Assembly: GCF_000473165.1 (NCBI RefSeq)
Contig: NZ_KI421504.1
Span: 2,205,958-2,269,957, forward strand
Direction of reading: 5' to 3'
DNA from: Leisingera aquimarina DSM 24565
GTDB taxonomy: Bacteria > Pseudomonadota > Alphaproteobacteria > Rhodobacterales > Rhodobacteraceae
DNA: 64,000 nt
A model generated the notes under the pieces. The model did no database searches, was not told the origin of the DNA, and saw nothing but the letters and a program-made list of their open reading frames with translations. A program made the position numbers and the translations under genes. This document shows positions 39,141-63,930 of the stretch, piece after piece. Each line of letters begins with the position of its first letter. Position 1 is the first letter of the stretch.

Positions 39141-39246
39141 AGTTTTCTTAACTGGTTGGGCGACAAGCCCCATCCGACGTTATCCGGACAAGTACTCGTT
39201 GAATGGTCGCATCACTATGATTGGTACCGGTCAGGATGCCAAGCCG

Positions 39247-39747: not shown

Positions 39748-40149
39748 CTGTTTTCTCCTATGAAATGTGTTTCGCTGAATATTCTTCGTGCGCGGGGCCC
39801 AGAGCCATTGGTGGCACGGACTGACACGCATCATGCGCGCTGCGTGCATCGGTCGAGGCATGCGTGTTGGGTGAGTCGAAAGTGCTGCTGTCGGGTGTCA
39901 GACGAGCCTCGGCGCTCCCCTCTCGTCTCGATCCTGGCGATTGCTGAGCCGACATTCTTCGGCATGCATACGCGGCGCATTGTGCGATGATGGATGTTTT
40001 TTCAATTGAAATCAACGCACTAATTCGCCGTTAGAAATTCCTTCTGCATTTCTGAAAAAGGCCAATCTTCTCGTCAGTTCGGGTGCGCAAAGGTGTGCCC
40101 GGCTCGCCACAAACGAGCGCGGTCGCGCTCCATCGAGGAGGAACACCAT
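39748..40149. promoter_or_regulatory. Region upstream of tnsA, possible transposon end
   Basis: 402 bp between the divergent hypothetical gene and tnsA. In Tn7-like elements the right end with transposase-binding repeats lies just upstream of tnsA, so it is expected here. Visible: GGCATGCGT at 39858 and GGCATGCAT at 39961, a perfect 12-bp palindrome TTTCAATTGAAA at 40000-40011, and a GAGGAGG-type ribosome site before tnsA. I could not fix a TGT...ACA terminus. Confidence 0.4.
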
Positions 40150-40827
40150 ATGTTGGAATTGCCGGACGGTAGCATCTGCCTTCCACGGCCGTCGATGGCC
40201 TCACGGAAGGTCGCAAAGGGTCGCCGGGAGCATTTCACCGGTCAGCTCAATGTCGGGCCGGACGAAGGCACCTGCATGGATATCGAGAGCTACACGGAGT
40301 TTCAGGTCGCCCTGACGCTTCTGGCGCGGCCCGAAGTGACGCATGTCGAGAACCAAGTGCCCTTCGCGTTCCTGAACGCCGATGGGCGGCCTGCAACACA
40401 CTTTTTTGATTTCCTCGCCACGCATACCGACGGCTCACGTCACGCGATCATGGTGAAGTCAGATTACCGTTTCCGTTCTCCAAGTGTATCGGAAGAACTG
40501 CGTCTGATCGCCAGCCAAGTCAACGCGGATTTCGCTGAGCGGGTGATGGTTATGACCGAGAAGCATTTCACCACGGCCGAATTCTACAACGCGGAGATGA
40601 TGCACGAGATGCGCTGGCCCGATCCTGCGGTGGACGGCGCAGCGCTTCGTGTCGTGCAGCCGATCATCGGCGCGGTCCGGATCTCCGATCTGGTCGAAGC
40701 GATTGGCCACGGCGGCCAAGGTTTCCGCGCTGTTGTTCGGCTTATCCGCGACCGTCACCTCGCAATCCCCGACGGCATCAAGATCTCCTACGACGCCTCA
40801 GTGACACGGAATAAGCAAGATGCTTGA
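40150..40827 (+). CDS. tnsA: TnsA-like transposon endonuclease
   Basis: 225 residues from the ATG at 40150, which has a strong GAGGAGG site 8 bases upstream. The restriction-enzyme-like core is seen: Glu50 ('ESYTEFQVALTLLARPEVTHVENQ'), Asp87 ('THFFDFLATH') and Lys103 ('HAIMVKSDYRF'), the E-D-xK triad of TnsA-type nucleases. In Tn7, TnsA cuts the 5' ends of the element while TnsB cuts and joins the 3' ends, giving cut-and-paste transposition. It overlaps tnsB by 8 bp. Confidence 0.82.
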   Translation: MLELPDGSICLPRPSMASRKVAKGRREHFTGQLNVGPDEGTCMDIESYTEFQVALTLLARPEVTHVENQVPFAFLNADGRPATHFFDFLATHTDGSRHAIMVKSDYRFRSPSVSEELRLIASQVNADFAERVMVMTEKHFTTAEFYNAEMMHEMRWPDPAVDGAALRVVQPIIGAVRISDLVEAIGHGGQGFRAVVRLIRDRHLAIPDGIKISYDASVTRNKQDA

Positions 40828-43024
40828 TATCAGCCCCAGTCCGCTTTCCACTCGCTACGCATTCACCCCTGCCGACGAAATTCTCATCGACGGCCGTGAA
40901 TATCAATACTTCGAAACTCGTGGCAACGAGCACCTATTCAGGCCCGCTGACGGGAATGGCATTCTTCAGTCTTTCAACAACAGCCAGATTTCACGTTGGC
41001 TGGACAAGGGGAAGTTCGAACACAAGCCTGGACCTACATGCGAGCAAGCAACCACGATTCCGACGCAGTTGCTGAGTCTGTTCAGCGCGAAAGAGAAGGA
41101 GCGCGCCGCAACTCGGGAAGCTCTCGTCTTGGCCTTCCTCGAACTCTATGACGCCAAGGAGGTAAAGCGAACCGACAAATCCATCAAAAGCATGATGGAG
41201 AAAATCTGTTTCCGCGCCGGAAAGATCATGAAAGAGACGACACTTCCAGGAATGTTGCCGACGCAGGCAACTCCCGAGGAGGTCAGCGCGCGCTCTTTAC
41301 GGCGCTGGCTCAAAGGCTACGAGTATCATGGTATTGCAGCGCTTTATGACAGCGTGTCTGATCGGGGGAATTACGACCGGCGGATCACTGGTGGTGAGCG
41401 TGAGCTCATGTATCGCACCGTCCTTGGCTATCTCAGCGATCTGAAAAAATCACCTGCCAACATTGTTGCCGATGTTCGCGCGGCATTCGTCGCAGAAAAC
41501 GAGCAACGCAAAGCGGAAGGCCTGCCTGAACTGGTGTGTCCGTCGCGGATCACCATCCGCAATGCTATCGCATCTCTCGACCCTTTCCGGGTGAAGCTGT
41601 CGCGTGATGGCAAGGACGCTGCGCGCCGAGCGTATTCACCAGTGGGCCAAGGGATCGACGTCGAACGCCCCTTGCAGCGGGTTGAAATGGATGAGCAGCA
41701 AATCGACCTAATCTCTCTCATGGCGGACTCGGGGCTGCTGAACTTTTTTAGTGACGATGAGAAGGCGGCCTTTGGTTTAGATGGCACGCAGGGGCGTTGG
41801 TGGATGACTGTCGCCTTGTGCATTCGCACCCGCTGCATCATTGGGATGAACCTTTCGCGCACCCCGACAGCTCAGAGCGCATTGCGTACCGCTGAAATGG
41901 CGATGCGTGACAAGGGCGTTTGGTCAGATGCAGTTGGCGCGCTCGAACCTTGGGAGCAATTCGGGATGATCGGCACGCTTGTCACCGATTGTGCCAAGCA
42001 ATTCGTCGGCCATGACTTCCGGGCGCGGATGCACGACGTCGGGGTCAATGTGCTGCACACTCCGGCGGCAGCCCCGTGGTTGAAGCCCTACATCGAGCGT
42101 GTCTTCCGAACCTTCTCGACAAGACTGATGCCACGTCTCTCGGGGTGCACGTTTGGAGACATTCTACGTCGCGGTTCAAGCAATCCAGAAGAGAAAGCCG
42201 CGCTAACTGCCGATCAGCTTTGTGCAGTTCTGGTGCGATGGATCGTCGATATCTACCATAATACGCCTCACGAGGGGCTGGATGGTGAAACACCGCGCAA
42301 TTGCTGGCATCGCCTGACGGCCAAATATGGCGTCACACCGCCACCCTCACTGCCTCGCCGTCGTCTGATCTTCGGCCAGGAAATCAGCCGTGTCCTGCAC
42401 AAGGACGGGATTACGGTCCTTGGTGTGCGCTATCATTCGAAGACGCTCGCGCAGCACATGATGCACAGCAATGATACACAAATGGTGGTTCGTTGGTATC
42501 CCGAAGACATCGGGGCGATTTGGGTCAAGATCGGGGACGCCTGGTGCCCCGTAACCGCGGTTCACAAACGCTTCCACGGCGTTTCTGCGCAGCAATGGTT
42601 GATCGCACGACGCCAGCTGCGTTTTCAGCACGAATGCGCTGCAAAGGCGAAGGCATCCGTCGTTCAGAAAGCTCTCGACTTCGTAGCGGAACAGAACGGT
42701 CTGGCAATGAAACGCGTAGGGGTCGTGCAGCAGGACTGGTCAGCTGATCGGATCGAGCGTGAAGAGCAAGCCATGTTCACAGGTTTCGGGATCGCCGAAG
42801 ATGAGGACGAGCTTACCGGCTCCATCGCCGAACACCGCTGGGGCGAGGCGCTGCCTACAGCGGCCTCGACCGCGCAGGCGGCGGAAGAAAAAGTACACGA
42901 CCCGGCAGAAATTTCTTCCGTCCCGGCGGAGCCGTTCCAATTTCCCGTCGAGCATCATCCCGCCTCCTCGGACGGTGACGATGATGATGATGATGGGGAA
43001 TTTCTGACACTTTGGGACAAGTAA
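40820..43024 (+). CDS. tnsB: TnsB-like DDE transposase
   Basis: 734 residues. N-terminal DNA-binding domains (about 1-270, with a helix-turn-helix at 'SLRRWLKGYEYHGIAALYD') precede an integrase core whose catalytic residues are Asp291 ('RVEMDEQQIDL'), Asp390 ('LVTDCAKQF') and Glu426 ('PYIERVF'), an exact D-D-35-E spacing. A Mu-type C-terminal beta barrel follows, then an acidic tail with six aspartates, which in TnsB contacts TnsC. It is intact. It binds the transposon ends and performs 3' cleavage and strand transfer. Confidence 0.9.
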   Translation: MLDISPSPLSTRYAFTPADEILIDGREYQYFETRGNEHLFRPADGNGILQSFNNSQISRWLDKGKFEHKPGPTCEQATTIPTQLLSLFSAKEKERAATREALVLAFLELYDAKEVKRTDKSIKSMMEKICFRAGKIMKETTLPGMLPTQATPEEVSARSLRRWLKGYEYHGIAALYDSVSDRGNYDRRITGGERELMYRTVLGYLSDLKKSPANIVADVRAAFVAENEQRKAEGLPELVCPSRITIRNAIASLDPFRVKLSRDGKDAARRAYSPVGQGIDVERPLQRVEMDEQQIDLISLMADSGLLNFFSDDEKAAFGLDGTQGRWWMTVALCIRTRCIIGMNLSRTPTAQSALRTAEMAMRDKGVWSDAVGALEPWEQFGMIGTLVTDCAKQFVGHDFRARMHDVGVNVLHTPAAAPWLKPYIERVFRTFSTRLMPRLSGCTFGDILRRGSSNPEEKAALTADQLCAVLVRWIVDIYHNTPHEGLDGETPRNCWHRLTAKYGVTPPPSLPRRRLIFGQEISRVLHKDGITVLGVRYHSKTLAQHMMHSNDTQMVVRWYPEDIGAIWVKIGDAWCPVTAVHKRFHGVSAQQWLIARRQLRFQHECAAKAKASVVQKALDFVAEQNGLAMKRVGVVQQDWSADRIEREEQAMFTGFGIAEDEDELTGSIAEHRWGEALPTAASTAQAAEEKVHDPAEISSVPAEPFQFPVEHHPASSDGDDDDDDGEFLTLWDK

Positions 43025-43027
43025 CCG

Positions 43028-43999
43028 ATGACCATGATGACCTCGATCCCGGCCCCGGCTCTCGCAGCCGTGGACCGGGCCGCAAGCAAGTATATTCCCA
43101 CTGGACGGGACAAAGACTTCCGGCATCAGCTGGACCGTCTTTTCGCCCGCGACGATACCGGCGCGTTGACGGCTGCGCTGCGGAAAGATCCCGGGACCGG
43201 GGACGCCAAAGGTCTCGCGGTCATCGAAGCCCCAGGGGGAGGAAAATCTACTTTGATCGAGAAGGGGCTTTCTCGGCACCCCTTCCTCGAGCCCGAGTTT
43301 GAAGGGCACCTGCCATACATTAAAATCAATGCTCCGAGCCCTGCTACCCCGAAGAGCCTGCTGATCGAGCTGCTCATGGCCACTGGCTACGCGGACGTAT
43401 CGTGGTCGAAGTCGGAACAAGAGATCACGAAGCTCCTCCGGCACCGCTTGCAATTGTGTGGCGTGCTGATTGTTTGGATCGATGAGGCGCACGACTTGAT
43501 CGGTGGGGGGACGCCTCACAAGGTTCAGACAACCGTGAAGTCCACGAAGAACCTGATGCAGGGCGTGGGTGCGGTCGGACTCATCCTGAGCGGCATCGAC
43601 ACGCTGTGGACGCTGATTTCGAGCGACGAACAACTCAACCGCCGCTTCAGCAAGATGCCGCTGAAATCAGTGACCGCTGTTTCGGATGAGAAGATGCTCA
43701 ACTCGATTGTCCGAACACTGTGCAAGGAAGTGGGAGTGGAGGCTCCAGTGTCCAGCGACCTGCTGGAGCGTCTCGTGCACGCCAGTAGGGGCCGCTTCGG
43801 GCGCTTCATCGAATATACCTTGGCGGCGCTCGAAACAGCTGCCTATGCCGGCGATGCTTTTCTGGACGTGCATCATTTCGCACAGGCATGGGCTCAGCGT
43901 GAGGGCTGCGAGCAAGGGCAAAATGTCTTCCTCGCGAAGAACTGGGCGCAAATCGACCTCGGGCAGTTCCCAGGCTCGCCGGCGAGAGGGGGCCGCTGA
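43028..43999 (+). CDS. tnsC: TnsC/TniB-like AAA+ ATPase
   Basis: 323 residues. Walker A is APGGGKST (68-75), Walker B 'VLIVWIDEAHDL' with Asp152-Glu153, and 'VGLILSGIDTLW' with 'NRRFSKMPL' gives the sensor and arginine region, all typical of TniB/TnsC. It forms filaments on target DNA and links the TniQ target selector to the transposase. The start is 4 bp after the tnsB stop, and tniQ begins 2 bp after its own stop. Confidence 0.88.
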   Translation: MTMMTSIPAPALAAVDRAASKYIPTGRDKDFRHQLDRLFARDDTGALTAALRKDPGTGDAKGLAVIEAPGGGKSTLIEKGLSRHPFLEPEFEGHLPYIKINAPSPATPKSLLIELLMATGYADVSWSKSEQEITKLLRHRLQLCGVLIVWIDEAHDLIGGGTPHKVQTTVKSTKNLMQGVGAVGLILSGIDTLWTLISSDEQLNRRFSKMPLKSVTAVSDEKMLNSIVRTLCKEVGVEAPVSSDLLERLVHASRGRFGRFIEYTLAALETAAYAGDAFLDVHHFAQAWAQREGCEQGQNVFLAKNWAQIDLGQFPGSPARGGR

Positions 44000-44000
44000 C

Positions 44001-45821
44001 ATGCTCTTGCCGTTCCTTCCTTTCGAAGCACATGAAACACCCATTTCCTTCGGAAACCGCTTGAGTGCCTTTCATGCCAGGAGCCCGCTGATCTCTGTGG
44101 CGAAAGACTTCGGCATAGATCCGCTCGATATGGTTTGGAATAAGCCGGAGGCACTTGAGCGCTTGGCGGAGGTTTCTGGTGTTTCGGCAGAAATCTTGCG
44201 GCAGAATGCACCAATAGCACTGGGTGAGCGAGAGTATGACCTGCGCGGCGAGACGGTGAGTGCCGAGTTTCTGTCGAGCCCAAAAATTGTATACTGCCCG
44301 GCGTGCCTTCACGAGGATGATCAACGTGGAGAGCGCTGTGCACATTGGTCGTGGGCGCTGGCTGTTATGCGGACATGCCCGGTGCATGAGATCGCCCTTC
44401 AGCGTAATGTGACGCGTGCTTGGAATGATCGTCTTCAGTCTCTTGACCACCTCGTCCCCGAACGTGGTGAGGCATTGCAGATCATTGTGGCATCGGCGCC
44501 GCGGCGTGTTCCGTCGCCCCTTCAGGATTACGTGCTGCATCGCCTTGAAGGTCGTGAGGGACCCGAGTGGCTTGACGCTCAATCCCTGGAGCAGGCTGTC
44601 CGCGCGACCGAATTGCTCGGCGTGCTCCTTGAGTTCGGTGCAGAGCAAAACTTGCCTGCTCTGGCCTCCGACGACTGGGACCGAGCAGGGCGCACTGGCT
44701 ATGCCTTCACCGCCAGAGGCGAGGCTGGTATTCGTGAGGCGCTACAGCAGCAGTTCGACCGGTTCTCGACGTCGAAGGGCACACCGGGCGCGCGCAAGAT
44801 TTTCGGATGCTTCTACAAGGCACTGGCATATTCCAAGTCCTTGAAGGAGCCGGGTGATATCGCACGCATCCTGCGGGAGTTCATCTGGGACCGGATTGCG
44901 ATGCCCGCTGACACCAAAGTGCTGGGAAAAAAGCTGCTTGAGCGCCGTCTGCACACCGTGGCTTCGCTGGCATTGGAGACCGACCACGACCCCCGGCGGC
45001 TGCATAGCATGCTGGTAGGGCAAAATATCATTCCAGAAGATGCTGCCTCGCACTTCGCTATTCCGGTGGAAATCGGACGGGCGGTCGCCGCACGCGTAAA
45101 GCGCATCGTCAAGATTACCAAGCTACCCGACGCTCTGAACTGCACCCGGCCGATGGTCGACCAACTGTGCGCCGAACGTCTTTTGAGGCCAATCTACTAC
45201 GGAACGCCTGGTATCAACGGCAAGCTTCAGAAGGGGGTGGATGGTGATGAGGTCGTTGATTTGACGGATGCACTTTCCGCGAAAGCTACTTTGAGCGGGG
45301 ATGTCTCGGGATTGGTGACGATCGCGAAGGCGGCGGAGAAGGCAAAGATCCCTGGCGTGTGTGTAGTGCAACTGATCCTCGCGGGTTGTCTTCAGAGCGT
45401 TGCCCGTATCGGAGGCGTCCCTGGCATAGGAGGACTGCGTGTCTGTCCTTCCGAAGTAAAGGCGGTCGCGGCTGCAACCCTGCTCGGTATGACCGCAACA
45501 GAGACGTTCGCCGCCCTCAAGCTTACCAGGGATGCGGGATGGGAACTTGTGGATCGCTATCCCGAAGAGGTTTCGCTGACACCTCAAAAAATTGCGGGTG
45601 TCAGTTCTGCATTCACGATCACGCGGTTTCTACCTGAGACCGTCTCAGCTTTTGACGCGCGGTTCACAACGCTTGCTCGTGCCGCTGAAAAACATGGGCC
45701 TGGAGTCAAGGAGCTGAAGGTTTCGCTGAAGAAAGTTGGAGTGAAGCCGGTCCTTCCCTGGCGAGAGGTCGGCGCAGATATCTACAAAGTTTCGGATATC
45801 GCAAAGTGCCTGCCGAGCTGA
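44001..45821 (+). CDS. tniQ: TniQ family target-selection protein
   Basis: 606 residues from the ATG at 44001. The N-terminal TniQ domain begins 'PFLPFEAHETPISFGNRLSAFHA' and contains zinc ligands in 'YCPACLHED' (Cys99, Cys102) and 'RTCPVHEIAL' (Cys126, His129). The long C-terminal part has helix-turn-helix-like repeats ('LVTIAKAAEKAKIPGVCVVQLIL'), as in TnsD-type proteins that read a fixed attachment site. It is the only TniQ in the module and no tnsE or cas gene is near, so it probably directs site-specific insertion. Followed by a good terminator. Confidence 0.85.
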   Translation: MLLPFLPFEAHETPISFGNRLSAFHARSPLISVAKDFGIDPLDMVWNKPEALERLAEVSGVSAEILRQNAPIALGEREYDLRGETVSAEFLSSPKIVYCPACLHEDDQRGERCAHWSWALAVMRTCPVHEIALQRNVTRAWNDRLQSLDHLVPERGEALQIIVASAPRRVPSPLQDYVLHRLEGREGPEWLDAQSLEQAVRATELLGVLLEFGAEQNLPALASDDWDRAGRTGYAFTARGEAGIREALQQQFDRFSTSKGTPGARKIFGCFYKALAYSKSLKEPGDIARILREFIWDRIAMPADTKVLGKKLLERRLHTVASLALETDHDPRRLHSMLVGQNIIPEDAASHFAIPVEIGRAVAARVKRIVKITKLPDALNCTRPMVDQLCAERLLRPIYYGTPGINGKLQKGVDGDEVVDLTDALSAKATLSGDVSGLVTIAKAAEKAKIPGVCVVQLILAGCLQSVARIGGVPGIGGLRVCPSEVKAVAAATLLGMTATETFAALKLTRDAGWELVDRYPEEVSLTPQKIAGVSSAFTITRFLPETVSAFDARFTTLARAAEKHGPGVKELKVSLKKVGVKPVLPWREVGADIYKVSDIAKCLPS

Positions 45822-46490: not shown

Positions 46491-48389
46491 TCAATTTCTG
46501 AGTGATCGGCTATCCCGCGTGTATTTGCGGCCGACTACCAGCTTTGAGTTCTCGAGCTCAGGCGCAATTTTCGACGTTGTGTAGATAAGTTGATGAGGTT
46601 CTTTGCTCTCCTGCGAGAGCTTTATTAGCAGTCTCTGAAAGTTCCAGGACCTTTCTTCGACCATCCCTTTGTCTTCGATATTGTCAAACAACATCCAGCG
46701 CGGAAGTTTGAACTTCTTGTCAACAAGTGATGATCGAAACATAGCAGCAGCAAAGCTGTTTTTTAGAACAATCATACCGCTCGCGCTGCCGGCGCGATTT
46801 TTCTCACCATTTATTGCCATCCAATCTTCTGAAAAATCAAATTCAACGTGTTCAACTTTTCCAAAGTCGCTGTACTCCTGCAGATCTTCATCCAAAAGCT
46901 TTTTGGCTTCAGTTGAAATTGTAGAATATGCCTTTGCTTTTCGCGCTCCCTGCTTTCGCTCTATAGACGTTATCTCGTTGTTCAATCTTGTTAGTTGGTT
47001 GTTGAGGTCTTCCTTGGCGTCGGATGCAGATTTTATCTTTTCTGCAATTTCGAGTCTCTTTTGCAAGCTCTCGAGCTCGCTATCAATAAAACCTATTTTC
47101 CGACTTAACTCTGCGACCTCTGCTTCTCTCCCAAAAGATGAGCTCGATCGAGAAAACTCCAAAGTTGCTGCGGTCTTTCGCAGTGCGCGTTTCGCTACTT
47201 TTAGGGTGGATTTTTTTTCCTTCAGTTCGGAAACACGTTCAGCTTGCAGGGAAAGGGATTCTTTTAACTGCATTTGGAGATCTAACTTAACAGCAAGAGT
47301 CCTGGAAGAGTCCTCCTCCTTAGATCGCGGCGTGTCACAAAGTTGACAATGACCTACTTCTTTAGTCTGGACGGGAGCAAAACAGGACGGGCAGTATTCA
47401 AAATCCAAGTGACCTAATGCGGAAAACGTTTCAGATGCCACCTCGAAGTCTCTAAGAGATTGTTCTAAATGCTCTATGAAGCCATCGGCGTCATCAATTT
47501 CATATCCCAATGTTTCAACGTCATCTTCGAGATCGCGCACTTGTCGTCTTGCTGAGTTATATGCCCTGGTCGCTTCCTTTCTGTTCTTGGCAATTTCAGG
47601 CGGCTCCTCTTCGATCTCACTGTTTGTCAGCAAGTTTTCGATCACGGCAAGGAGATTTGAGCGCTCCTCCTGAGATGCTTTCATCGCAGTTTCGATGTGT
47701 TCAGTGAGGATTTTTTCGCCGTACCCGGAAGCTACAGACACAAGGTTTCTGTACAGCGTGACAGCGGAATCATATTTCTTTCTGACTTCTCTGAGCTTCA
47801 TTTGCTTTTCGAAGAGGTCGTAACCACCGACACCAGCAAGGAGGTCGCCAACTGCTTGGCGGGTTTGCCACTTGTCAAAGCTTTCTACTCGGAAAATTCT
47901 CTGAACTGGCGTGAGCTGATCAACATAAAGCAGTCTCAGTATTTGGTGCATGGTGATGTTGCTGGAGCCATCACTTATTGCTTCCGGCAGGCCCATGGCC
48001 TTGAAAAGAACTTGGCTAAAACTGTAGCCGTGTTCTGGGCGCATGTAAGGTAGTTCTTGCCAGTTTCCTGATCCGCTCTCAAGTGCTTGCTGCATTTCTC
48101 CGAAGTAGATTTCCATTGGACGTGTTTTCTTGGTTGATACCGCACGCCGCAAAGTCATTTTTCCTGACGGTGTTGTGATTTCAATAAGTGTGTTTTCAGC
48201 CCTGGATGCTGATGGTTTCCACTCCGTTAGGTCCCCACCAAGGCCGAAGAAAATAAAGTCAGCAATCGTTGATTTACCACCTCCGTTAGAGCCATGGATG
48301 ATATTGACACCATCGTGGAAGGTCTCGTCGTAGAGTGCTGAGCTGCCGCGGGTGACAAGAAGCCGATTGAGGCGAAGTCTGGAAGTCAT
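46491..48389 (-). CDS. ABC-3C system ABC/SMC-like ATPase
   Basis: 632 residues. Walker A GSNGGGKST (33-41) opens an AAA_23/Rad50-like ATPase; a long coiled coil follows, interrupted by a zinc-hook-like 'YCPSCFAPVQTKEVGHCQLC' near the middle, and the C-terminal half has 'SASGMIVLKNSFAAAMF' and 'FKLPRWMLFDNIEDKGM', the Walker B equivalent. It is last of three overlapping genes (4-bp overlap with the middle component). In ABC-three-component systems the ATPase is thought to detect foreign or aberrant DNA and release the effector. Intact. Confidence 0.85.
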   Translation of the reverse strand: MTSRLRLNRLLVTRGSSALYDETFHDGVNIIHGSNGGGKSTIADFIFFGLGGDLTEWKPSASRAENTLIEITTPSGKMTLRRAVSTKKTRPMEIYFGEMQQALESGSGNWQELPYMRPEHGYSFSQVLFKAMGLPEAISDGSSNITMHQILRLLYVDQLTPVQRIFRVESFDKWQTRQAVGDLLAGVGGYDLFEKQMKLREVRKKYDSAVTLYRNLVSVASGYGEKILTEHIETAMKASQEERSNLLAVIENLLTNSEIEEEPPEIAKNRKEATRAYNSARRQVRDLEDDVETLGYEIDDADGFIEHLEQSLRDFEVASETFSALGHLDFEYCPSCFAPVQTKEVGHCQLCDTPRSKEEDSSRTLAVKLDLQMQLKESLSLQAERVSELKEKKSTLKVAKRALRKTAATLEFSRSSSSFGREAEVAELSRKIGFIDSELESLQKRLEIAEKIKSASDAKEDLNNQLTRLNNEITSIERKQGARKAKAYSTISTEAKKLLDEDLQEYSDFGKVEHVEFDFSEDWMAINGEKNRAGSASGMIVLKNSFAAAMFRSSLVDKKFKLPRWMLFDNIEDKGMVEERSWNFQRLLIKLSQESKEPHQLIYTTSKIAPELENSKLVVGRKYTRDSRSLRN

Positions 48390-48901
48390 AGAATAGGCCC
48401 TCGCGCCGGAATGCCGGCTCTCCTCACCAGGCCCTTGGGGCCGGTGACTGGCAAGTTTCCAACGTCTTTGATCAGAAAGGAAAGCAGATACTTTTCTGCC
48501 ATCCGTTGCCTTTCTACTGCTTGAAGTATCGATTGGGGGACATTCTCAAGCATTAAGTGAGCGCGATGGTCTCGAAGGGAGTCTCGCCTTAAGAGACCGC
48601 GACCTGTAAGTTGTTTAAGTGCCGTGGATTGAAACACTTGCAAGTCTTGCCAAATTGCGGCGGTCCCGGGCAATCGGATGAAGTACTTGTTGGGATGAGT
48701 AATCTTTAGTTTTCTAAAGTTAGACTTTTGTTCGTTAGGTAGTGAGAGACGGTAAAGGAGTGGGGGGTAAAGGAAAAACATGTCCAGGATCCGCAGTTTT
48801 TCAACCCGTATGGCTCCGCCGTCTTCCTTGAGAAGAGAGATTATTCGAAATGCGCAATGGTAGGGATCGCGCGACGAGTGCCAAATTCTGTAATCAGTCA
48901 T
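48386..48901 (-). CDS. ABC-3C system middle component
   Basis: 171 residues, winged-helix-like and rich in aromatics: 'DPYHCAFRIISLLKEDGGAIRVEKLRILDMFFLYPPLLY', then 'TALKQLTGRGLLRRDSL'. This matches the small helical middle component that bridges ATPase and effector in ABC-3C systems. It overlaps the effector gene end by 8 bp and the ATPase start by 4 bp. No catalytic motif. Family assignment rests on pattern and gene order rather than on a search. Confidence 0.75.
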   Translation of the reverse strand: MTDYRIWHSSRDPYHCAFRIISLLKEDGGAIRVEKLRILDMFFLYPPLLYRLSLPNEQKSNFRKLKITHPNKYFIRLPGTAAIWQDLQVFQSTALKQLTGRGLLRRDSLRDHRAHLMLENVPQSILQAVERQRMAEKYLLSFLIKDVGNLPVTGPKGLVRRAGIPARGPIL

Positions 48902-50158
48902 TGTCCCAGGCCAAATGGCAATTCCCTGCTAAATAATAAAGTACTTCATCTACATGGTTGGCTGTAATTTCATGGTCCTGTGTGGAATGGGCTTTCACGC
49001 AAGGAGCGATAACGTTGTCTTGTATTTCATCATCAATTGCTTTGTGGTCTCCCGATTCAGCGATAACTCTCGTTACATGCCTATTGAAACGAGACTCCAC
49101 ATCAGACATCAGCTTGGTGTAGCGTGTGATGGCGGCAGGTTGAGCGAGGCGGCTTCGTAGCTCTGAGGCGAACCGCTCCTATTTACGCCGAGCATCCCGA
49201 ACCAAGTACTCTCTGTGTGCGTCTTCCAATTTTGTTTTTAGGTCTCGCCTGTCTTCTGCGGCAACTGTGGTGAAGTATTCATAGTCAGACAAAATTACCT
49301 GCGAGCAGTCAGCCAGTGGGTCGCTATTTTCATGAACCTTCTCCTTCGAAGAGACGACGTCTCCTGTCGAAGATCCGCCGCCTCCGGTTGCTTGGCCGGT
49401 TTGGCTTAAGACCTTTCTGATAGTGGTGGATACTGACCTGTAAACTCTGGATTCTTTGTTTTCAGGTTTGCAAATGTTCGTGTGGTTAGCCTCTACAGCT
49501 ATGGGTTCACTTCCCAGAACTCCGGGGTCCGCCGTAACCTGATCTACTACCCGAATTCCCCAAGTGTCCTTTGTTTCATAGAAAGACTTAACGACTAATC
49601 CCTTACGGTTTGCTGTGTTCCGGAAGTGGCTGTTTAAGTCGAGTAGTGCATCTTCAGCGTACAGGAGTTGCTTAGCCTGTTGGCTCGTAAAGTCTCTTAG
49701 GACAGCGTCAATCGCAGTAGCAACTTTTGCACCCTGATGGGGGGTTCCCAAAAACACCATACCTTTGATTGATCGACCAAGCTCCGTGAAGTCTGAATCA
49801 AGCGAGTCCTCATACTTGCGCAGAATTCGTTTGGCGATCAGGCCCCCTAAGCTGTGACAGATGATAGGAGGTTTGGTGAGCGAACATGCCTGGAAATTAG
49901 GTCGTCTGCAATCATGGTCGCAATGTCTTGGATGGAAACGCCACTTCCCTTGAGAATACTTGCGAATTTTGAGGAGTCGTAGCCCGCTACGAAGACCTGA
50001 CAATCTGCGAAGTCTTCCGAGATCCAAAGGGGCCAAAACGCGCCTTTGCGCAGGCACCAAGTCTTCTCGATATCACCGCCAAGCCCGTGGATAAACACAA
50101 TATCTAACTTTGGATGCTTTGGGGGGGTGGTACAGTTGGTAGGAAAAATTTGCTTCAA
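48894..50158 (-). pseudogene. ABC-3C effector: alpha/beta hydrolase plus ABC-3C C-terminal domain, disrupted
   Basis: One gene in two frames with an extra stop. From the ATG at 50158 the hydrolase starts 'KLDIVFIHGLGGDIEKTW' (oxyanion loop). The frame must shift at about 49870-49900 to continue into 'KPPIICHSLGGLIAKRIL', which holds the nucleophile Ser (H-S-L-G-G), then 'GMVFLGTPHQG'. At 49179-49181 an in-frame TAG interrupts the C-terminal domain; the same frame then runs on through 'ERFASELRSRLAQPAAITRY' to 'HVDEVLYYLAGNCHLAWDND', the usual ABC-3C ending. The total length is one base short of a multiple of three, fitting a single-base deletion. The hydrolase should be a lipase- or esterase-type toxin, here probably inactive unless these are sequencing errors. 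Confidence 0.75.
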
Positions 50159-50454
50159 TGCATTTGCTCGAATTCGGGGCTAAACCTTTGATCGCCAGGA
50201 TATACTCTTGGCTCATACCTGCAACCATCAATTGATCCCAAGTCTCCGATCATTGCATTGAGCTTTCTGATCGTTCGGACCTCTCCACCTTTTCGCCTTG
50301 GCTGCTCACATGCATCAGGTGCTGGCGTTGTTGGGACGCATATCGGATCCAAAAAGGTTCTGGAGGTGCTCCATCGCCTGGTCTGGGCCGCAAGAAGCCG
50401 ATTGTAGTCACGGACTCTTCCTACCTCGCATGCGAGCGCATCAGTATTGTCCAC
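50155..50454 (-). CDS. Short hypothetical frame between HEPN-like gene and ABC-3C effector
   Basis: About 99 codons if started at a GTG at 50454; the stop overlaps the effector ATG (ATGA), which is the main reason to list it. The translation ends 'EVRTIRKLNAMIGDLGSIDGCRYEPRVYPGDQRFSPEFEQMH'. No family or convincing ribosome site; it may be a decayed gene. Confidence 0.3.
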   Translation of the reverse strand: MDNTDALACEVGRVRDYNRLLAAQTRRWSTSRTFLDPICVPTTPAPDACEQPRRKGGEVRTIRKLNAMIGDLGSIDGCRYEPRVYPGDQRFSPEFEQMH

Positions 50455-50920
50455 TAAAACTTGTTTGCAGGACGTCGTCTTCGCGCAGTATCTGATCGAC
50501 AAGGAAAAGTGTCGCTGCAAAGAGACGCTGGTTGCGATCAGCATCAGGGTCGCCACTTTTCCCGCCATGAAAGAGATTGTTCCGCACGCGCCGCATCGCG
50601 CTGATTAGATCTTGAATTGACGTGACTTTCGCATGTTGCTCCCAGATCAATCTTCCAGTCTCATCAATGACCTGTTTTTTCGGCGGGGTTTCTATCAAGA
50701 CCTGTAGTTCCTGAGTGTCCTTGAATTTCGCCCAAAACGGAGCGCCGAGCTTTTCGTTGGTGTATTCCTCCCAGTTCACCTCAGCAACTTGCCTCCGTCC
50801 AGGTTTCCCGTAGCCGATATCTTTCAGTGCGAACTCCAAGCGCATCATAACTTTGAACAGTTTGATACCCTCGTCAGAGACTTCTTCGGCTTTCGAATTG
50901 TCAACATCTTGGCTGGTCAA
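50441..50920 (-). CDS. HEPN-like small protein
   Basis: 159 residues. The C-terminal half contains 'LISAMRRVRNNLFHGGKSGDPD', the R-N-x3-H motif of HEPN domains, in an all-helical context ('NQRLFAATLFLVDQILREDDVLQTSF'). HEPN proteins are often RNases or RNA-binding partners in conflict systems. It lies 36 bp after the helicase gene on the same strand and may belong to that operon or to the ABC-3C cluster. Confidence 0.65.
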   Translation of the reverse strand: MTSQDVDNSKAEEVSDEGIKLFKVMMRLEFALKDIGYGKPGRRQVAEVNWEEYTNEKLGAPFWAKFKDTQELQVLIETPPKKQVIDETGRLIWEQHAKVTSIQDLISAMRRVRNNLFHGGKSGDPDADRNQRLFAATLFLVDQILREDDVLQTSFSGQY

Positions 50921-50956
50921 TTTCTTCTCCCCTATTTTCCTTCGTGCTCAGAATGA

Positions 50957-53149
50957 TCACCTCATTGCCGAGGTTTCTCGGTAACCTTCAGTGCCGCACA
51001 AACTCTTTTGAAGAAATGCAATATCCAAGCGCGATGAAAGTGTGTCCTGGGCAAGCAAACCCTCGGTCAGATAGCCATGGAACTTCTCGAATACCAGATT
51101 TGGCGAATGCGCAAACAAATCCACAGCCTCATTTGATGATAGTCGGGCAAGAGCTTGATGCAGCGACGTTCCAGCTTCTCCTGCATCTACTATGAGGAAG
51201 CCGTCATACTGCTCGACCTCAAATCCGACAGCGCCCAGTGCCAAGGCCAATGTGGTCGATTTGACAGTTCCGCAACGGGTTGCGAGAGCGTGCGAGGTTT
51301 GTCCGAGTTCCACGACATTTGCACCTGAGAAACCCCAGCGCCGAAAACTGCTGCGAGCCTCTTTGAGTAGCCCTAAAGCGACTTGGTCCATATACGCCGG
51401 TTCAAAATCGCGCTCGAAGATTTCAAACATTTTTTCAATAACTCGGTCATGGATCATTCCCGGGTCGCCACCAAACAATGGAGGAACGCCAGTCTTTGCA
51501 TGTTTCACAAAGATGACTTTTTCCAGATCATGGATTTCCTGGACTACCCATCTGCGCCCAGAGAAAATGAGAAGCATGCCCGGAGACAGGATGTTCTCAA
51601 TAGGTAGAGTCCCAAGCTCTTTCCCGTCTGCTACAAGGCGGAACTCTTCGGGCGTCTTGAACACAGCGTAGAAACTGTAGTGCTCGACCAGACGCTCCCC
51701 CGCAGCCCCCAGCAAGAGAAGACCGTCAGAAGACTGTTCGATCAGACCGGCTTCAGCTCGTCCCATTGCCCTGAGAACATCCAAAAACAAGTCCGTGTCG
51801 ACCTGTCGGAACGGTCCTTCCTGACATAAAAGGCGATAGAGCCTGCTTGCTTGGGCTCCTCCGCGTTCTGCAATGACGGAAAGAACCTGGTGAACCAGCG
51901 TGGATAGGTGGAGAGCATCCGGTCTCGGGGGTTCGCACCACCCCTCGAGCAACAGTTCGATCATCGCAATGGACCGGACCAAACCGAGCCTTAGCTGATC
52001 CACAAAGCTGCTTTTGCTATCGAGCCTTGCTTCAATTGCATATTGGCGCAGGATCGCGGGTTGTCCTTCACGGCGCCCTGACCGCCCCAGCCTTTGTCGC
52101 AAAGCCGCTACGCTGAAAGGCGCTCCGACTTGGGCGACACAGGTCACATCGCCGATGTCGATCCCCAATTCCAACGTCGAAGTGCAAACAGCGGTGGTCG
52201 GCTGGTTTGCGTCTTTCAGCCGCTTTTCAACGAAGTCCCGGTGTTCCCGGGAAAGGCTGGCGTGATGTGGATAGAACTCCTGTGGCAGGTGTGATTTCTC
52301 ACAGAGCTCTCGCAGCCGGTCTGCGTATACTTCGACATGGTCACGCCTGCCTGCAAAAACGAGGTTGTCGCTGCCACGCAAGTGCTGAAACAAGTGCTCA
52401 GAGACGGCATCCGTTGCCGAAGGTGTGTTTTCACCTTCACCACCAGACACGTATCCCCGCAATTGCAAGAGAAGTTCGGCCTCTCCTCCCTCAGCTTTGA
52501 TTAACTTGACAGCATCGGCGTTGTCCGGCCGCAGGTAAGCCCTGGCCATGTTCATATCACCAAGAGTTGCTGACAAGCCGATACGGCGGATTGGCCGCTT
52601 CACAGCTATTTCCAGCCGAGTCAGTAGTGAGCGCATTTGCACGCCGCGCTCACTGTCCAAAACGCTATGTAGTTCATCGATCACAACTGCCCGCGTTGCG
52701 CCAAAGAGGCGTGGAATTTCGAGGCCGCGCCGGACGAACAATGCCTCAAGGGATTCAGGTGTGATCAACAAAATGCCTTTTGGCGATTTCATTGCGCGGG
52801 ATTTCACGCTGCTGGAAACATCACCATGCCAAGGATAAACCGGCAACTCTGCGTCACGGCAGAGGTCTTCAAGGCGCATGGCCTGATCAGTAATCAGGGC
52901 CTTGAGAGGGCCGATGTATAGTAGATCAAAACCACTGACGGTGGCTGGATCGTCCAAAACCTGTGAAATCAACGGCAGAAATGCAGCCTCTGTCTTTCCT
53001 CCCGCAGTTGAAGCCGAGATGATGACATCGCGGTCACTGCCAGTAACCGTATGAACCGCATCCGCTTGTATCTGGCGTAACTCACGCCAGCCTTTCGAAC
53101 GCACCCATTTCTGAACGGGGTGTGCGAGCTTATCGAAAGCAGTCGTCAT
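50957..53149 (-). CDS. DEAD/DEAH-box helicase, Lhr/BrxHI-like
   Basis: 730 residues, superfamily 2. Walker A is STAGGKT (47-53), motif II DELH (158-161), motif III 'GLSATLGD', and motif VI 'LRQRLGRSGRREGQP'; 'TSTLELGIDIGDV' is the Lhr-type motif V. The C-terminal 300 residues are helical and not recognised. Lhr-like helicases of this layout serve as BrxHI in type 2 BREX, beside a BrxD ATPase, and the gene just upstream here is BrxD-like. The gap to it is 9 bp. DNA or RNA unwinding is expected. Confidence 0.88.
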   Translation of the reverse strand: MTTAFDKLAHPVQKWVRSKGWRELRQIQADAVHTVTGSDRDVIISASTAGGKTEAAFLPLISQVLDDPATVSGFDLLYIGPLKALITDQAMRLEDLCRDAELPVYPWHGDVSSSVKSRAMKSPKGILLITPESLEALFVRRGLEIPRLFGATRAVVIDELHSVLDSERGVQMRSLLTRLEIAVKRPIRRIGLSATLGDMNMARAYLRPDNADAVKLIKAEGGEAELLLQLRGYVSGGEGENTPSATDAVSEHLFQHLRGSDNLVFAGRRDHVEVYADRLRELCEKSHLPQEFYPHHASLSREHRDFVEKRLKDANQPTTAVCTSTLELGIDIGDVTCVAQVGAPFSVAALRQRLGRSGRREGQPAILRQYAIEARLDSKSSFVDQLRLGLVRSIAMIELLLEGWCEPPRPDALHLSTLVHQVLSVIAERGGAQASRLYRLLCQEGPFRQVDTDLFLDVLRAMGRAEAGLIEQSSDGLLLLGAAGERLVEHYSFYAVFKTPEEFRLVADGKELGTLPIENILSPGMLLIFSGRRWVVQEIHDLEKVIFVKHAKTGVPPLFGGDPGMIHDRVIEKMFEIFERDFEPAYMDQVALGLLKEARSSFRRWGFSGANVVELGQTSHALATRCGTVKSTTLALALGAVGFEVEQYDGFLIVDAGEAGTSLHQALARLSSNEAVDLFAHSPNLVFEKFHGYLTEGLLAQDTLSSRLDIAFLQKSLCGTEGYRETSAMR

Positions 53150-53158
53150 CGTGCTAAT

Positions 53159-54469
53159 TTACAGCCGGAAGCTGACGAGGTCGTCATTGTCCTCGGTTGG
53201 CAGCGATCCGGTAGCTTCGTCGATGTCACTGAGGTCATCTCCTTGATCGTCAGCGACCTCAATCTGATCAATCAGGTCAGACCACATCACTCCTGGGTTT
53301 TGTTCCAGAACCGCAAGCAGGTTTACAAAGGCGGTGACAGTGTTACGGGGGGTACGGAAATAGGCTTCTCCAATGCGCTCGGAACAATGTGTCATAAACG
53401 CTTCCAGCGCACTGTCAGGCAATGCAGCCTCTTCTCCCTGCATGACGCGGCGAACGTTCGCCAGCAGAACAAACAGATCTTCCGGGGTCAGACTTGCCAA
53501 GCGTATGACTGGGCCGGACAAATCCACGAGACCATCCCGTGCAAAGGTGTTTTCAGCGAGGCGCGATTGAAGCGCCTCATAGCTGTAAAGCCCCCGTCGG
53601 GTATTCATCAGAAACTCCGGTGTGCCGCCCATCAGGAACCCCAGGTTCTGCGCGCTGCCCTGGAGCACATCATTCAAGATGCGCAAGATTTGCTCATAAT
53701 TGGCGTTACGGGCTTGTGAAGAGGTGAGTTTATAGAGGTTCACCATCTCATCCATGCCAACAAGCAGGCCTTTGTAACCGGCTTCTATCGTAAATGCAGA
53801 CATCAGCTTGAGGTGGTCATAAACACTTGCGTCATTGACGATTGTACGGACACCAAGAGCCTTGTGAGCATCCGTGCGCGTAGCATACTCCCCGCGAAGC
53901 CACCGTAGCGCCGCAGATTTCAGCTCGTCGTCACCAGTTTCGTGACCTTCCCAGTAGCGCCTGACCACTTCGGCGAAATCGAACCCACCAGTCAACTCCT
54001 CGAAGTGTGCAAGCTTCTCGCGGATGACGTTCCCTGTCGGCAGGTCACGCGCTTCAGCATCTCGATGTGCAGTAGAGACAAATCGCTCCACAATGCTGGC
54101 CAGCGCTCCCCCGTCGGGCTTTGTACGGGTCGAGAGGTTGCGGGCCATTTCCGCGTAGAGACCACGTGCCTGTCCCCCGGTTGCATGGATGCGACGATCC
54201 GGAGCGAGATCGGCGAACATAACCACCAGTCCTTTCTCGAGTGCCACAAGTCGGATCAAGTTCATGAAGAACGTTTTTCCCGAACCGTACTCGCCGATGA
54301 TGAACCGGATGGCGGACCCTCCGTCGGCGATACGATCCATGTCCTTGACCAATTCTTCGATCTCGCGCACCCGTCCGACCTGGATATGTCGCAATCCCAA
54401 CTTGGGCACGACGCCTGCTCGCAGAGCTTGAACAATGGCATCACGTTCACGGGGTTTAAGCCTCGACAT
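53159..54469 (-). CDS. BrxD-like (DUF2791) ATP-binding protein
   Basis: 436 residues from MSRLKPRERD, with GAGGAG 9 bases before the ATG. Walker A is GEYGSGKT (59-66), preceded by 'HIQVGRVREIEELVKDMDRI'; Walker B is 'GLLVGMDEMVNL' with Asp240-Glu241; 'NLGFLMGGTPEFL' and 'SRLAENTF' give the sensor and arginine-finger region. This fits the ATPase family called BrxD in BREX type 2. The acidic tail 'DDQGDDLSDIDEATGS' may contact a partner. It overlaps the TerB-domain gene by 14 bp. Confidence 0.85.
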   Translation of the reverse strand: MSRLKPRERDAIVQALRAGVVPKLGLRHIQVGRVREIEELVKDMDRIADGGSAIRFIIGEYGSGKTFFMNLIRLVALEKGLVVMFADLAPDRRIHATGGQARGLYAEMARNLSTRTKPDGGALASIVERFVSTAHRDAEARDLPTGNVIREKLAHFEELTGGFDFAEVVRRYWEGHETGDDELKSAALRWLRGEYATRTDAHKALGVRTIVNDASVYDHLKLMSAFTIEAGYKGLLVGMDEMVNLYKLTSSQARNANYEQILRILNDVLQGSAQNLGFLMGGTPEFLMNTRRGLYSYEALQSRLAENTFARDGLVDLSGPVIRLASLTPEDLFVLLANVRRVMQGEEAALPDSALEAFMTHCSERIGEAYFRTPRNTVTAFVNLLAVLEQNPGVMWSDLIDQIEVADDQGDDLSDIDEATGSLPTEDNDDLVSFRL

Positions 54470-57068
54470 GGTCGATCTCCTCTTCAAACTTTTTCTTCAA
54501 TTCTTGGGCCAGATCGGGCGCCACTTCATAACCGTCGTACTCGTCAAGAAGTGCCTCGTCGTAGGTTCCAAACGCCCACTCGTTTATGTCTTCAATGGCA
54601 CCTGAAGCGAGCAGCCCTGATTGACGACACAGGTCTTCAAATGCCTCTTCGGTCCAATGCTCCTGAGCGACAAGCGCCCTTACAAGATTTGTCTGTTTGG
54701 TATCCAGTCCTGCAAGCACCGCAGAGGCGTTCCCGATTTCCTCAGGTTCTTCTGATGCCTCGTCGAAAATATCTCCCAAGACCGATGAGACCCGCGCAGT
54801 GTCAGATTGGATCGCGGCGATCCGCGCTGCGTCCAGCTTCGGTGCACCAGCTGGTTTCTCATCAGGAATGACTTCTCCGGCCGCTCCGGGCTCTGCTGCC
54901 CGCACCCGCACAGGCCCATCGCTCACATTGCCCGCATGAATATCCGAATAGACAAGCGACGGATCCAGACCCAAAGACTTATAGATCTTTTCGATTCCGG
55001 CCACTTCTTCGGGCTGAATAATCCCATCAGCGTGTGCTGCCGCGACCAGGGCCGAACGGATGGAGGCCTGTGCCTCGGCTCCGGTATCCTTGAGCTTGCG
55101 CTTAAGCAGCGCCAAGTCTGGAGGCACGGCCAGCATCCAATCCAGATTGGCTGCAAGGCGGCGGTGTTCCTGCTCGCTGAGGCCTGCAACACCAGCGATC
55201 TTCGCGCGAAGCGATTTCCTTTCGCTCTCACTGATCTGACCATCAGAGTGGGCCACAAAGGAGCCCAGTGCAATCTCAATCAATGCTGCGCGGTAGCCAT
55301 CCGAAACGTCTTCGAGTTGCGCCACTGCATCGCCCAGATCGAAAAGCACTACCGGCTCACCGGGCTTGGGTGACCGCAGCGCGAAACGTGGGTCAGGAGC
55401 AAACCCATAGCCGAGCCGAGCCAGAGCATCCGCCACCCCGGTGAGTGTTCGCTTGCTCAGTTTTTCGGGACGTTCGCCTTCAAGCTGCTCAACTACATCC
55501 AGAACTGGCACCAGGCCGCCGTTGTGAACAATTGCGCCGACCCATGATCTCAATTGTTCTAACTCGTCGCTTGGGAAAAGGTCCCACAGCTCCTGCGGCA
55601 ACAGCGCCTGCGCTTCAAGACTTCCACGGCCATCAGGATTCCGACCCAGATACCGGCTAAGCTTGTCCAGATCGTCCATTACTTCATCGGCGATTTCTTG
55701 TGCGATTTCCACCGGTTTGCGTAATCCAGAAATGTCGGGAACTCTGTTTCCGTCTATCAACGGCTCAAGCTGTCCCTGAAACTCGCTCGACGCCGCCTGA
55801 TAGGTGATCTTGAGCAGCTTGCGTGGTTTGTTGACTTTCAGGCCATCGGGGAAACGGTCTTCAAAGCGCAATCTGAATAGCGTTCGAAACTCTTCGGCGC
55901 ATCGGGTCGAAGGTGTGCGCATACGACGTTCGGGATGGCATAGCAGCCAACTTAAGACCCAGTCTGCTGACAGTAATTCACCACGGTTCAGCCGCGCGCC
56001 AATGGCAACTTTCAGTGACAGTGGTATGTCCCAGCCACGAAACTCAAAGAGGGGTTCATCTAAGGCTTCGTCATTCAGAGAGACTTGAGCGAGTTGAATA
56101 AATTCACCGAGGTATCGCTGAACCGAGCCATTGTCGGGGTATAGGTTTTGGAGGCGACGGACCTCTTGCAAGATCTCCCGTTTCTCTGCCTCAGTTGGTT
56201 TATCCAGGAAAAAACGACGTTCCAGCCCGTAGAAATAGAGGAACATATATCCGGCATCATACCGTCCATCCTTGGCTCCGCCTGCCAGCCAATCAAGATA
56301 TGTGGCACGACTATTCGCGGAGATGTCAGAATAACTTGGCCAATATGGCAGTTCGTCACCTGCCAAGTCTGTTCCACTGCGTGCAACCGAAAGAGAGGGG
56401 TCAATGTATGCGCGGCACTTGTCCCGATATCCAAAATCGTTGAGGCGTGGAGGGGTTCCAATATAGATCATCCCGCCAATGTCTCGCCCCGCAATTTGAA
56501 CTGTTTCAGATGAAGGCACCCAGCCCGTACGACGCGTAGCTTTCTTCTTGGCAGACTTGGCTTTTGTTGCTTCTTTCCTTGCTGCAATCTCCGCAAGCTC
56601 GGATGCTGAGGACCTTCCTGCTTTGATGATCGCAGCATAGTCCTGCTTGGGAGGGCGGTACTGCCCTGTTTGACTGCGAGCATTAGCACTCTCGTCAGGT
56701 ATCGTGCGTACTGAAACGTTTGCCGCTGTCGGCTTTACGCGCTCGCTGACCGCACTTTGGCGTATCTGTTCGCGCTCCTGGTCAATGCGTTTTTCAAATC
56801 GACTCTTCTTAGGCGGTGAACTTGGTCGTTTTGACGAGTTTGCAGGCTGTTCAGGGGCTGTCTCGGTATCAAACGTCGGCTGGTGCGAGTGTCTTCTTGC
56901 TCGCCTTTTCTCGCCCCACCACACCAAGGCAATGGGCGTGAGAAAGGCGAAAAGCATCTGCGCGCCCGGCGACCAGTCTGTGAAGACAGTGACCACTGCA
57001 ACCATGCAGAGAACGAAATACAGGGCAAGAAAGAAAAACACACGAAGGAGCTTGATAATCGTCGACAT
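54456..57068 (-). CDS. TerB-domain membrane protein (TerB-N, TerB, TerB-C)
   Basis: 870 residues from MSTIIKLL. Two hydrophobic segments near the N-terminus ('VFFFLALYFVLCMVAVVTVF', 'MLFAFLTPIALVWW') anchor it; a charged, disordered linker follows to about residue 190. The TerB-N domain then starts ('DIGGMIYIGTPPRLNDFGYRDKCRAYIDPSL'), with 'RATYLDWLAGGAKDGRYDAGYMFLYFYGLERRFF'. Two TerB-like acidic repeats, 'AHSDGQISESERKSL' and 'AHADGIIQPEEVAGIEKIY', and a TerB-C region end the protein. TerB domains occur in stress and phage-resistance systems and may bind metal. It is first of a coupled three-gene unit with ATPase and helicase. Confidence 0.85.
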   Translation of the reverse strand: MSTIIKLLRVFFFLALYFVLCMVAVVTVFTDWSPGAQMLFAFLTPIALVWWGEKRRARRHSHQPTFDTETAPEQPANSSKRPSSPPKKSRFEKRIDQEREQIRQSAVSERVKPTAANVSVRTIPDESANARSQTGQYRPPKQDYAAIIKAGRSSASELAEIAARKEATKAKSAKKKATRRTGWVPSSETVQIAGRDIGGMIYIGTPPRLNDFGYRDKCRAYIDPSLSVARSGTDLAGDELPYWPSYSDISANSRATYLDWLAGGAKDGRYDAGYMFLYFYGLERRFFLDKPTEAEKREILQEVRRLQNLYPDNGSVQRYLGEFIQLAQVSLNDEALDEPLFEFRGWDIPLSLKVAIGARLNRGELLSADWVLSWLLCHPERRMRTPSTRCAEEFRTLFRLRFEDRFPDGLKVNKPRKLLKITYQAASSEFQGQLEPLIDGNRVPDISGLRKPVEIAQEIADEVMDDLDKLSRYLGRNPDGRGSLEAQALLPQELWDLFPSDELEQLRSWVGAIVHNGGLVPVLDVVEQLEGERPEKLSKRTLTGVADALARLGYGFAPDPRFALRSPKPGEPVVLFDLGDAVAQLEDVSDGYRAALIEIALGSFVAHSDGQISESERKSLRAKIAGVAGLSEQEHRRLAANLDWMLAVPPDLALLKRKLKDTGAEAQASIRSALVAAAHADGIIQPEEVAGIEKIYKSLGLDPSLVYSDIHAGNVSDGPVRVRAAEPGAAGEVIPDEKPAGAPKLDAARIAAIQSDTARVSSVLGDIFDEASEEPEEIGNASAVLAGLDTKQTNLVRALVAQEHWTEEAFEDLCRQSGLLASGAIEDINEWAFGTYDEALLDEYDGYEVAPDLAQELKKKFEEEIDHVEA

Positions 57069-62940: not shown

Positions 62941-63036
62941 ATGGATGATGATAGGGCGCGGATTTACGAAATTAACAAGATTCTGAAGATGCACGGTCTT
63001 GATCACGGCAAGCGAGAGGCAGCCTTTGACCTCTGA
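62941..63036 (+). pseudogene. Truncated gene start, cut by an IS element
   Basis: 31 codons 'MDDDRARIYEINKILKMHG...' with GGGAGA upstream. Its stop TGA is the first three bases of the adjoining IS end, so the gene was interrupted by the insertion. The rest should lie beyond the IS, outside the window. Confidence 0.5.
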
Positions 63037-63067
63037 GCGGCCCCGCTTGAGTGGTCCAAGTTGAAAG

Positions 63068-63930
63068 TTAGTGCATGGTTGGCCTTTGGTCTACCGGAAC
63101 AATGGCCTCTGGAGCCGGTGGGCGGTAGCCCAGAGCACTGTGTGGTCGTCTGGTGTTGTAGTGTTTTCTCCAACTTTCGATGATGATCTGGGCTTCCCGC
63201 AGCGAGTAAAAGACCTCACCGTTCAGCAGCTCGTCGCGCATGCGCCCGTTGAAGCTTTCGCAATATCCGTTCTCCCACGGTGACCCGGGTTCGATGAATG
63301 CGGTCTTAGCCCCAACTGCTTTGATCCAGCCTCTGACGGCCTCAGCTATGAATTCGGGGCCGTTGTCAGACCTGATGTAAGCAGGCACGCCCCGAAGAAT
63401 GAACAGGTCGGTCAGAACATCAATGACCTCGGTCGAGTTCAGCTGCCGCCTCACCCGGGTCGCCAAACATTCCCGACTGTGTTCGTCCAGAATATTCAAT
63501 GTCCTGAACGCTCGACCATCGTCTGTTCGATGATGCACGAAGTCGTACGACCAGACGTGATTGCGATACTCTGGCCGCAGCCGAACACACGAACCATTGT
63601 TGAGCCAGAGCCGCCCTTTCTTGGGCTGTTTCATGGGAACCTTTAGCCCCTCTCGCCGCCATAGACGTTCGACGCGCTTGTCGTTCACCTGCCAGCCTGC
63701 GTCTCACAGCAGAGCGGCAATCCGACGGTAGCCATATCGACCATACTGACGTGTCAGCTCGATCATGTCCTCGACCAGGCGGTCTTCGTCAGCACGCCCA
63801 AGTGGCAACCGGCGCTGCGTGGATCGGTGCTGGCCCAAGACGCGGCATACACGGCGTTCGGAAATCTTGATTTGGCTACGCACATGATCGATGCAGGCAC
63901 GGCGGCGCGAGGGGCTCAGAAGTTTCCCTT
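63068..63930 (-). pseudogene. IS3-family transposase OrfB with internal nonsense codon
   Basis: The orfB frame begins within the orfA end through 'KGKLLSPSRRRACIDHV' and continues to 'YGYRRIAALL', where a TGA at 63704-63706 interrupts it. Relatives have Arg here (LLRDAGW), so a CGA to TGA change is likely. After the stop comes the integrase core: '[10 protein letters not shown]' (Asp), '[11 protein letters not shown]' (Asp), '[11 protein letters not shown]' (Glu). The element is therefore not expected to move by itself unless the stop is read through. Confidence 0.82.

Follow-up and report, generated by a model that had tools for sequence, protein, structure and literature searches.

An operon matching the Shango anti-phage system in a variable island of Leisingera aquimarina, with a candidate membrane tether

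Locus organization and identity

The DNA analyzed here (the window) is a stretch of 64,000 nucleotides from Leisingera aquimarina DSM 24565 (contig NZ_KI421504.1, positions 2,205,958 to 2,269,957), and it carries a three-gene operon that is almost certainly sngA-sngB-sngC of Shango, a known anti-phage system. The leading gene, sngA (54456-57068, minus strand), encodes 870 amino acids from an ATG at 57068, and its product matches the PADLOC SngA profile (1.7e-102) and the Pfam families TerB_N (9e-59), TerB (5e-10) and TerB_C (5e-25). It overlaps by 14 bp with sngB (53159-54469, minus strand), which encodes a BrxC/BrxD-family AAA+ ATPase of 436 amino acids from an ATG (PADLOC SngB, 1.4e-175; Pfam BrxC_BrxD, 1e-151) with an intact Walker A motif, GEYGSGKT. 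After a gap of 9 bp follows sngC (50957-53149, minus strand), whose product of 730 amino acids is a superfamily 2 (SF2) helicase of the Lhr/BrxHI-like type (PADLOC SngC, 8.9e-274) with DEAD and Helicase_C domains by Pfam and with helicase motifs I, II (DELH), III, V and VI all located. No nuclease domain was matched by Pfam in SngA, SngB or SngC. A HEPN-like open reading frame (ORF; 50441-50920, minus strand; 159 amino acids, TTG start) lies beyond sngC. An initial annotation made from the sequence had placed these four minus-strand ORFs at exactly these coordinates, and its description of a defence operon, in which a TerB protein bearing a membrane segment is encoded together with an AAA+ ATPase resembling BrxD and a helicase resembling BrxHI/Lhr, agrees with the domains and motifs found.

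On the PADLOC profiles PDLC03958 (SngA), PDLC03959 (SngB) and PDLC03960 (SngC), the window proteins score 342.8, 582.6 and 908.7 bits, near the 343.6, 622.2 and 922.0 bits of a TerB-ATPase-helicase operon of E. coli, which was picked by its DNA similarity to a Pantoea copy and is not known as a phage-tested copy. The gene order A-B-C, with sngB and sngC adjacent, is also that of Shango. Millman and colleagues reportedly described Shango in E. coli defence islands in 2022. In P. aeruginosa PA14, Shango comes from the hotspot cDHS1 and is described as a TerB-like protein, an ATPase and a DEAD/DEAH helicase (PMC10250203). When cloned in PAO1, the PA14 system lowered the plating of many, not all, phages by 10-100-fold and generally protected liquid cultures, and the same source credits another group with reporting Shango from E. 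coli islands (PMC10250203). A Sulfitobacter faviae plasmid was listed with Shango in 2023 (PMC10221251). The initial annotation's view of the locus as a little-studied candidate is thus superseded, as Shango had been named and phage-tested in 2022-2023 (PMC10250203); the system was already known, and the window locus itself is an ordinary one. The window operon is complete and probably working.

Linkage and distribution

A profile-guided scan gave at least 510 confirmed SngA relatives, and the best 80 of these at least 510 are the loci surveyed here. The initial annotation had called for a survey of the co-occurrence of the three genes, and their linkage is nearly complete: 69 loci extend for at least 3.8 kb past sngA (the other 11 were too short), and SngB was found in all 69 of them and SngC in 68, the sole miss being L073. 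Among the 73 loci with all three genes, the gap between sngA and sngB is at most 30 bp in 72 and that between sngB and sngC in all 73. The survey begins from SngA, and the frequency of SngB or SngC apart from it is outside its reach. Compared with close relatives, SngA changes fastest (about 58-60% identity, against about 88% for SngB and about 74% for SngC). A decayed remnant was also seen at L146 (7234-12273), where SngA is joined in frame with short fragments of the other two proteins.

The system is patchily distributed. In the genus, sngB occurs in 1 of 21 genomes, and SngA was found in 8 of the 292 genomes searched for the order and in 13 of the 398 searched for the phylum (counts that include the window's own genome). 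In E. coli, the Pantoea sngB DNA is matched by 479 of 5,426 genomes, and in 467 of these the match spans at least 80% of its length. Shango copies are also found on conjugative plasmids. Plasmid records matching SngA at 1e-10 number 678, of which 450 are from Klebsiella; because only 23 of the 678 cover at least 80% of SngA, many of these matches may be other TerB proteins. Upstream of 12 of the 80 loci (L043, L044, L045, L047, L050, L053, L055, L057-L059, L076 and L083) lie DUF1403, ScpB-like and tyrosine-integrase genes, together with RepC in 11 of the 12; three of these loci are identical over 14 kb, and a similar order of genes is found on Roseobacter and Mesorhizobium plasmids. Downstream, at least 0.6 kb is available after sngC in 64 loci, at least 1.5 kb in 60 and at least 5 kb in 55. 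A same-strand ORF lies within 150 bp after sngC in 20 of 60 loci with room, and the other genes found after sngC include PDC-S46 (L040), DUF4297-HerA (L036) and a PD-(D/E)XK and UvrD pair of AddAB-like appearance (L046).

Alternative readings of the operon

The operon could be a partial or dispersed type 2 BREX system, in which BrxD and BrxHI have lost PglX, PglZ and PglW or use copies encoded elsewhere in the genome. SngB does match the BrxD profile (2.4e-44) and SngC the BrxHI profile (3.1e-112), and a PglZ gene is present in the genome. However, the Shango profiles score far above those of BREX (583 versus 150 bits for SngB against BrxD; 909 versus 374 bits for SngC against BrxHI), and on the curated NCBIfam BrxD model NF033438 SngB reaches 148 bits, below the cut-off of 350. 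The PglZ gene of this genome sits about 1.45 Mb away in a BrxC-PglX-PglZ-BrxL set that is type 1 by content, and the SngB profile finds one match only in its own genome, leaving no second protein as a candidate BrxD. This origin is therefore extremely improbable. The likeness to BREX that the initial annotation had drawn stands as homology of SngB and SngC to BrxD and BrxHI and fails as membership of type 2 BREX; its statement that PglX and PglZ are missing is right for the neighbours scanned, among which Pfam and PADLOC found no PglW, PglX or PglZ (not every ORF was scanned), and needs the type 1 set elsewhere in the genome beside it. A Ter-type stress or metal response unit, in which TerB would bind metal and the ATPase and helicase would repair DNA, is likewise very improbable, given the island and plasmid context, the patchy distribution and the protection from phage conferred by another Shango copy (PMC10250203).

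The operon might instead comprise four genes, with the HEPN-like protein as a killing RNase effector of Shango. The HEPN-like gene shares the strand of sngC and begins 36 bp downstream of it, and its RN-x3-H motif is conserved in all 12 aligned sequences (the window protein and 11 relatives). The ORF itself had no match in Pfam, PADLOC, NCBIfam or PDB sequences, and its single-sequence model is poor (predicted local distance difference test, pLDDT, 49). Against a fourth subunit, no HEPN-like relative was detected at E 1e-4 in any of the 80 related Shango loci, 60 of which extend at least 1.5 kb beyond sngC, so that the HEPN partner proposed in the initial annotation is matched in none. Among the 292 genomes of the order, 9 carry a HEPN-like relative and 8 carry SngA, with only 2 carrying both; the two genes are known to be adjacent only in the window's genome, and in the other (G195) they are on different contigs. 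Published Shango, as its report describes it, works with three genes (PMC10250203). The HEPN-like relatives moreover adjoin varied other genes: one lies directly after an OLD-type ATPase (GajA) and helicase pair in Rhizobium (L032), another follows a Sinorhizobium abortive-infection gene (L033), others adjoin a GajA/UvrD-like pair on the opposite strand (L138) or a gene for an N6-methyltransferase (L139), and one has TniQ and Mu-type transposase genes nearby (L137). In L135 (6779-10994), the HEPN-like gene is followed by an ABC-3C operon with a CTD6 effector, MC2 and an SMC-like ATPase, and in the window an ABC-3C operon of the MC5 type starts 282 bp after the HEPN-like gene, in the same order. 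Because both loci have the HEPN-like gene before ABC-3C, ABC-3C may be as good a candidate as Shango for its partner, if it has one. A four-gene Shango is thus very unlikely, and the HEPN-like gene is most plausibly a mobile gene associated with defence, which neighbours Shango here without being a conserved part of it.

SngA anchors and a possible mechanism

The window SngA begins with a strong N-terminal hydrophobic segment, and its model (pLDDT 80.9) has helices at residues 2-27 and 34-61. Across the survey, a transmembrane (TM)-like segment precedes TerB_N in 76 of the 80 SngA proteins by hydropathy. The modules that provide it are unrelated to one another and include a TM hairpin, TM2, PG_binding_1, DUF4236 and a short TM segment; in some of them, the peptidoglycan-binding domain would face the periplasm. 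Because SngA is usually membrane-anchored, and by unrelated modules, the comparison suggests that Shango acts at the envelope. It is an evenly balanced question whether Shango is in fact envelope-tethered, such that the cytoplasmic TerB_N-TerB-TerB_C core has been kept, the N-terminal anchor has been repeatedly swapped for unrelated membrane or cell-wall modules, and membrane placement is part of its function. At L140 (4256-9412), a chimeric SngA has an unrelated N-terminal part in place of the anchor and TerB_N, SngB and SngC are ordinary, and a normal SngA is also encoded in that same genome.

A specific mechanism can be put forward tentatively, and in its details it is rather more likely to fail than to hold. 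SngA would be embedded in the inner membrane, would expose its TerB_N, TerB and TerB_C parts to the cytoplasm and would recruit SngB, which, as an ORC/Cdc6-type AAA+ ATPase, would load SngC on foreign DNA near its entry or first copying. SngC would then unwind or strip the foreign DNA, and as a result phage replication would stall or host nucleases would destroy the DNA. Such a loader step has been proposed for BrxD-BrxHI (PMC12839542).

Several observations weigh against the tether or the loader scheme. The SngA proteins of L144 and L140 have no TM-like segment and are encoded beside SngB and SngC, and that of L113 has a signal-like start and PG_binding_1 with no second TM segment; the membrane segments were called from a simple hydropathy scan only. 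In SngB, a search for the strict Walker B pattern gave no match, and the candidate MDE was read by eye. The loader idea is taken over from BrxD-BrxHI, where it is itself only a proposal.

The mechanism of Shango, which the initial annotation had called open, is still so; no published explanation was found in the parts of the literature consulted, and the present comparison offers a lead. If envelope tethering is true, placement at the membrane, possibly where DNA enters the cell, would be part of how Shango functions. As most SngA proteins retain a membrane segment whose sequence is swapped, and as SngA changes fast, where Shango acts and what it senses become directly testable.

The island and its other genes

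The operon lies in a variable island (26290-64000) downstream of a ribonucleotide reductase gene. Of the 20 available congeners, 18 were examined (all but G674 and G676), and in all 18 this gene matches the window up to base 26282-26289, after which their sequences differ from it. Beyond this edge, the window side shares just 116 bp, with one congener (compared over up to about 13 kb each, less than 4 kb in three, and on one strand); some congeners share DNA with one another past the ribonucleotide reductase gene. The GC fraction is 0.60-0.67 before base 26290 and 0.47-0.59 after it. The right end of the island was not found inside the 64-kb window, and the right flank is not syntenic. It is very likely that the window operon was acquired horizontally together with this defence island. 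The site after the ribonucleotide reductase gene (26290) is a chromosomal hotspot in the genus, at which 18 of the 18 congeners examined differ from the window.

The ABC-3C/Lamassu-like operon next to the HEPN-like gene (46491-50158, minus strand) consists of an LmuB-like ATPase gene (46491-48389; PADLOC LmuB, 7.6e-36), an MC5 gene (48386-48901; Pfam, 5.6e-29) and an effector region (48894-50158) that is broken by a frame change and an in-frame stop; the ATPase and MC5 frames are open. On a Sulfitobacter plasmid, a related ABC-3C operon lies right after Shango, with an open effector ORF and an ATPase annotated as a short ORF. The island also carries a patatin-like gene. Other genes of the island include a complete-looking Avs3 at 32317-39173 (Avs3a of 2076 amino acids, 1551 bits; Avs3b, 4.3e-23; PADLOC) and, at 40093-45821, Tn7/Tn5053-like transposition genes for TnsB/TniA-like, TniB and 711-amino-acid TniQ proteins; the first ORF of this stretch (40093-40827) had no match in the Pfam and PADLOC scans. 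Insertion-sequence DNA occupies 63034-63900, and the genome has 8 more full-length copies that are nearly identical to it.

Comparison with known systems

The closest system is Shango itself: the E. coli and P. aeruginosa PA14 operons have the same three genes, order and domains as the window, and the E. coli proteins are 31, 57 and 42% identical to the window SngA, SngB and SngC over the aligned parts. The copies differ at the N-terminus of SngA, where the window protein, as in its Rhodobacterales relatives, has a TM hairpin and linker of about 180 residues, whereas that of E. coli carries a single short TM segment. The neighbouring HEPN and ABC-3C genes are a local feature of the window copy. 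Zorya pairs an envelope component with further proteins that act with it. No ZorA/ZorB-type family is among the Pfam matches of the three Shango proteins, and this likeness is one of idea only. With type 2 BREX, Shango shares a dyad, as BrxD-BrxHI is homologous to the paired SngB-SngC; the window differs in having a TerB protein and no PglW, PglX or PglZ among the scanned neighbours. SngC, BrxHI, DruE and DpdJ have been placed in one possible clade of defence helicases, and HamB has been grouped with Ski2 helicases (PMC12278908). Hachiman is described with a nuclease partner, of a kind that Pfam did not match in the Shango proteins. Druantia, Dpd and Hachiman resemble Shango in having an SF2 helicase like SngC (DruE, DpdJ and HamB) and differ from it in the partners of that helicase.
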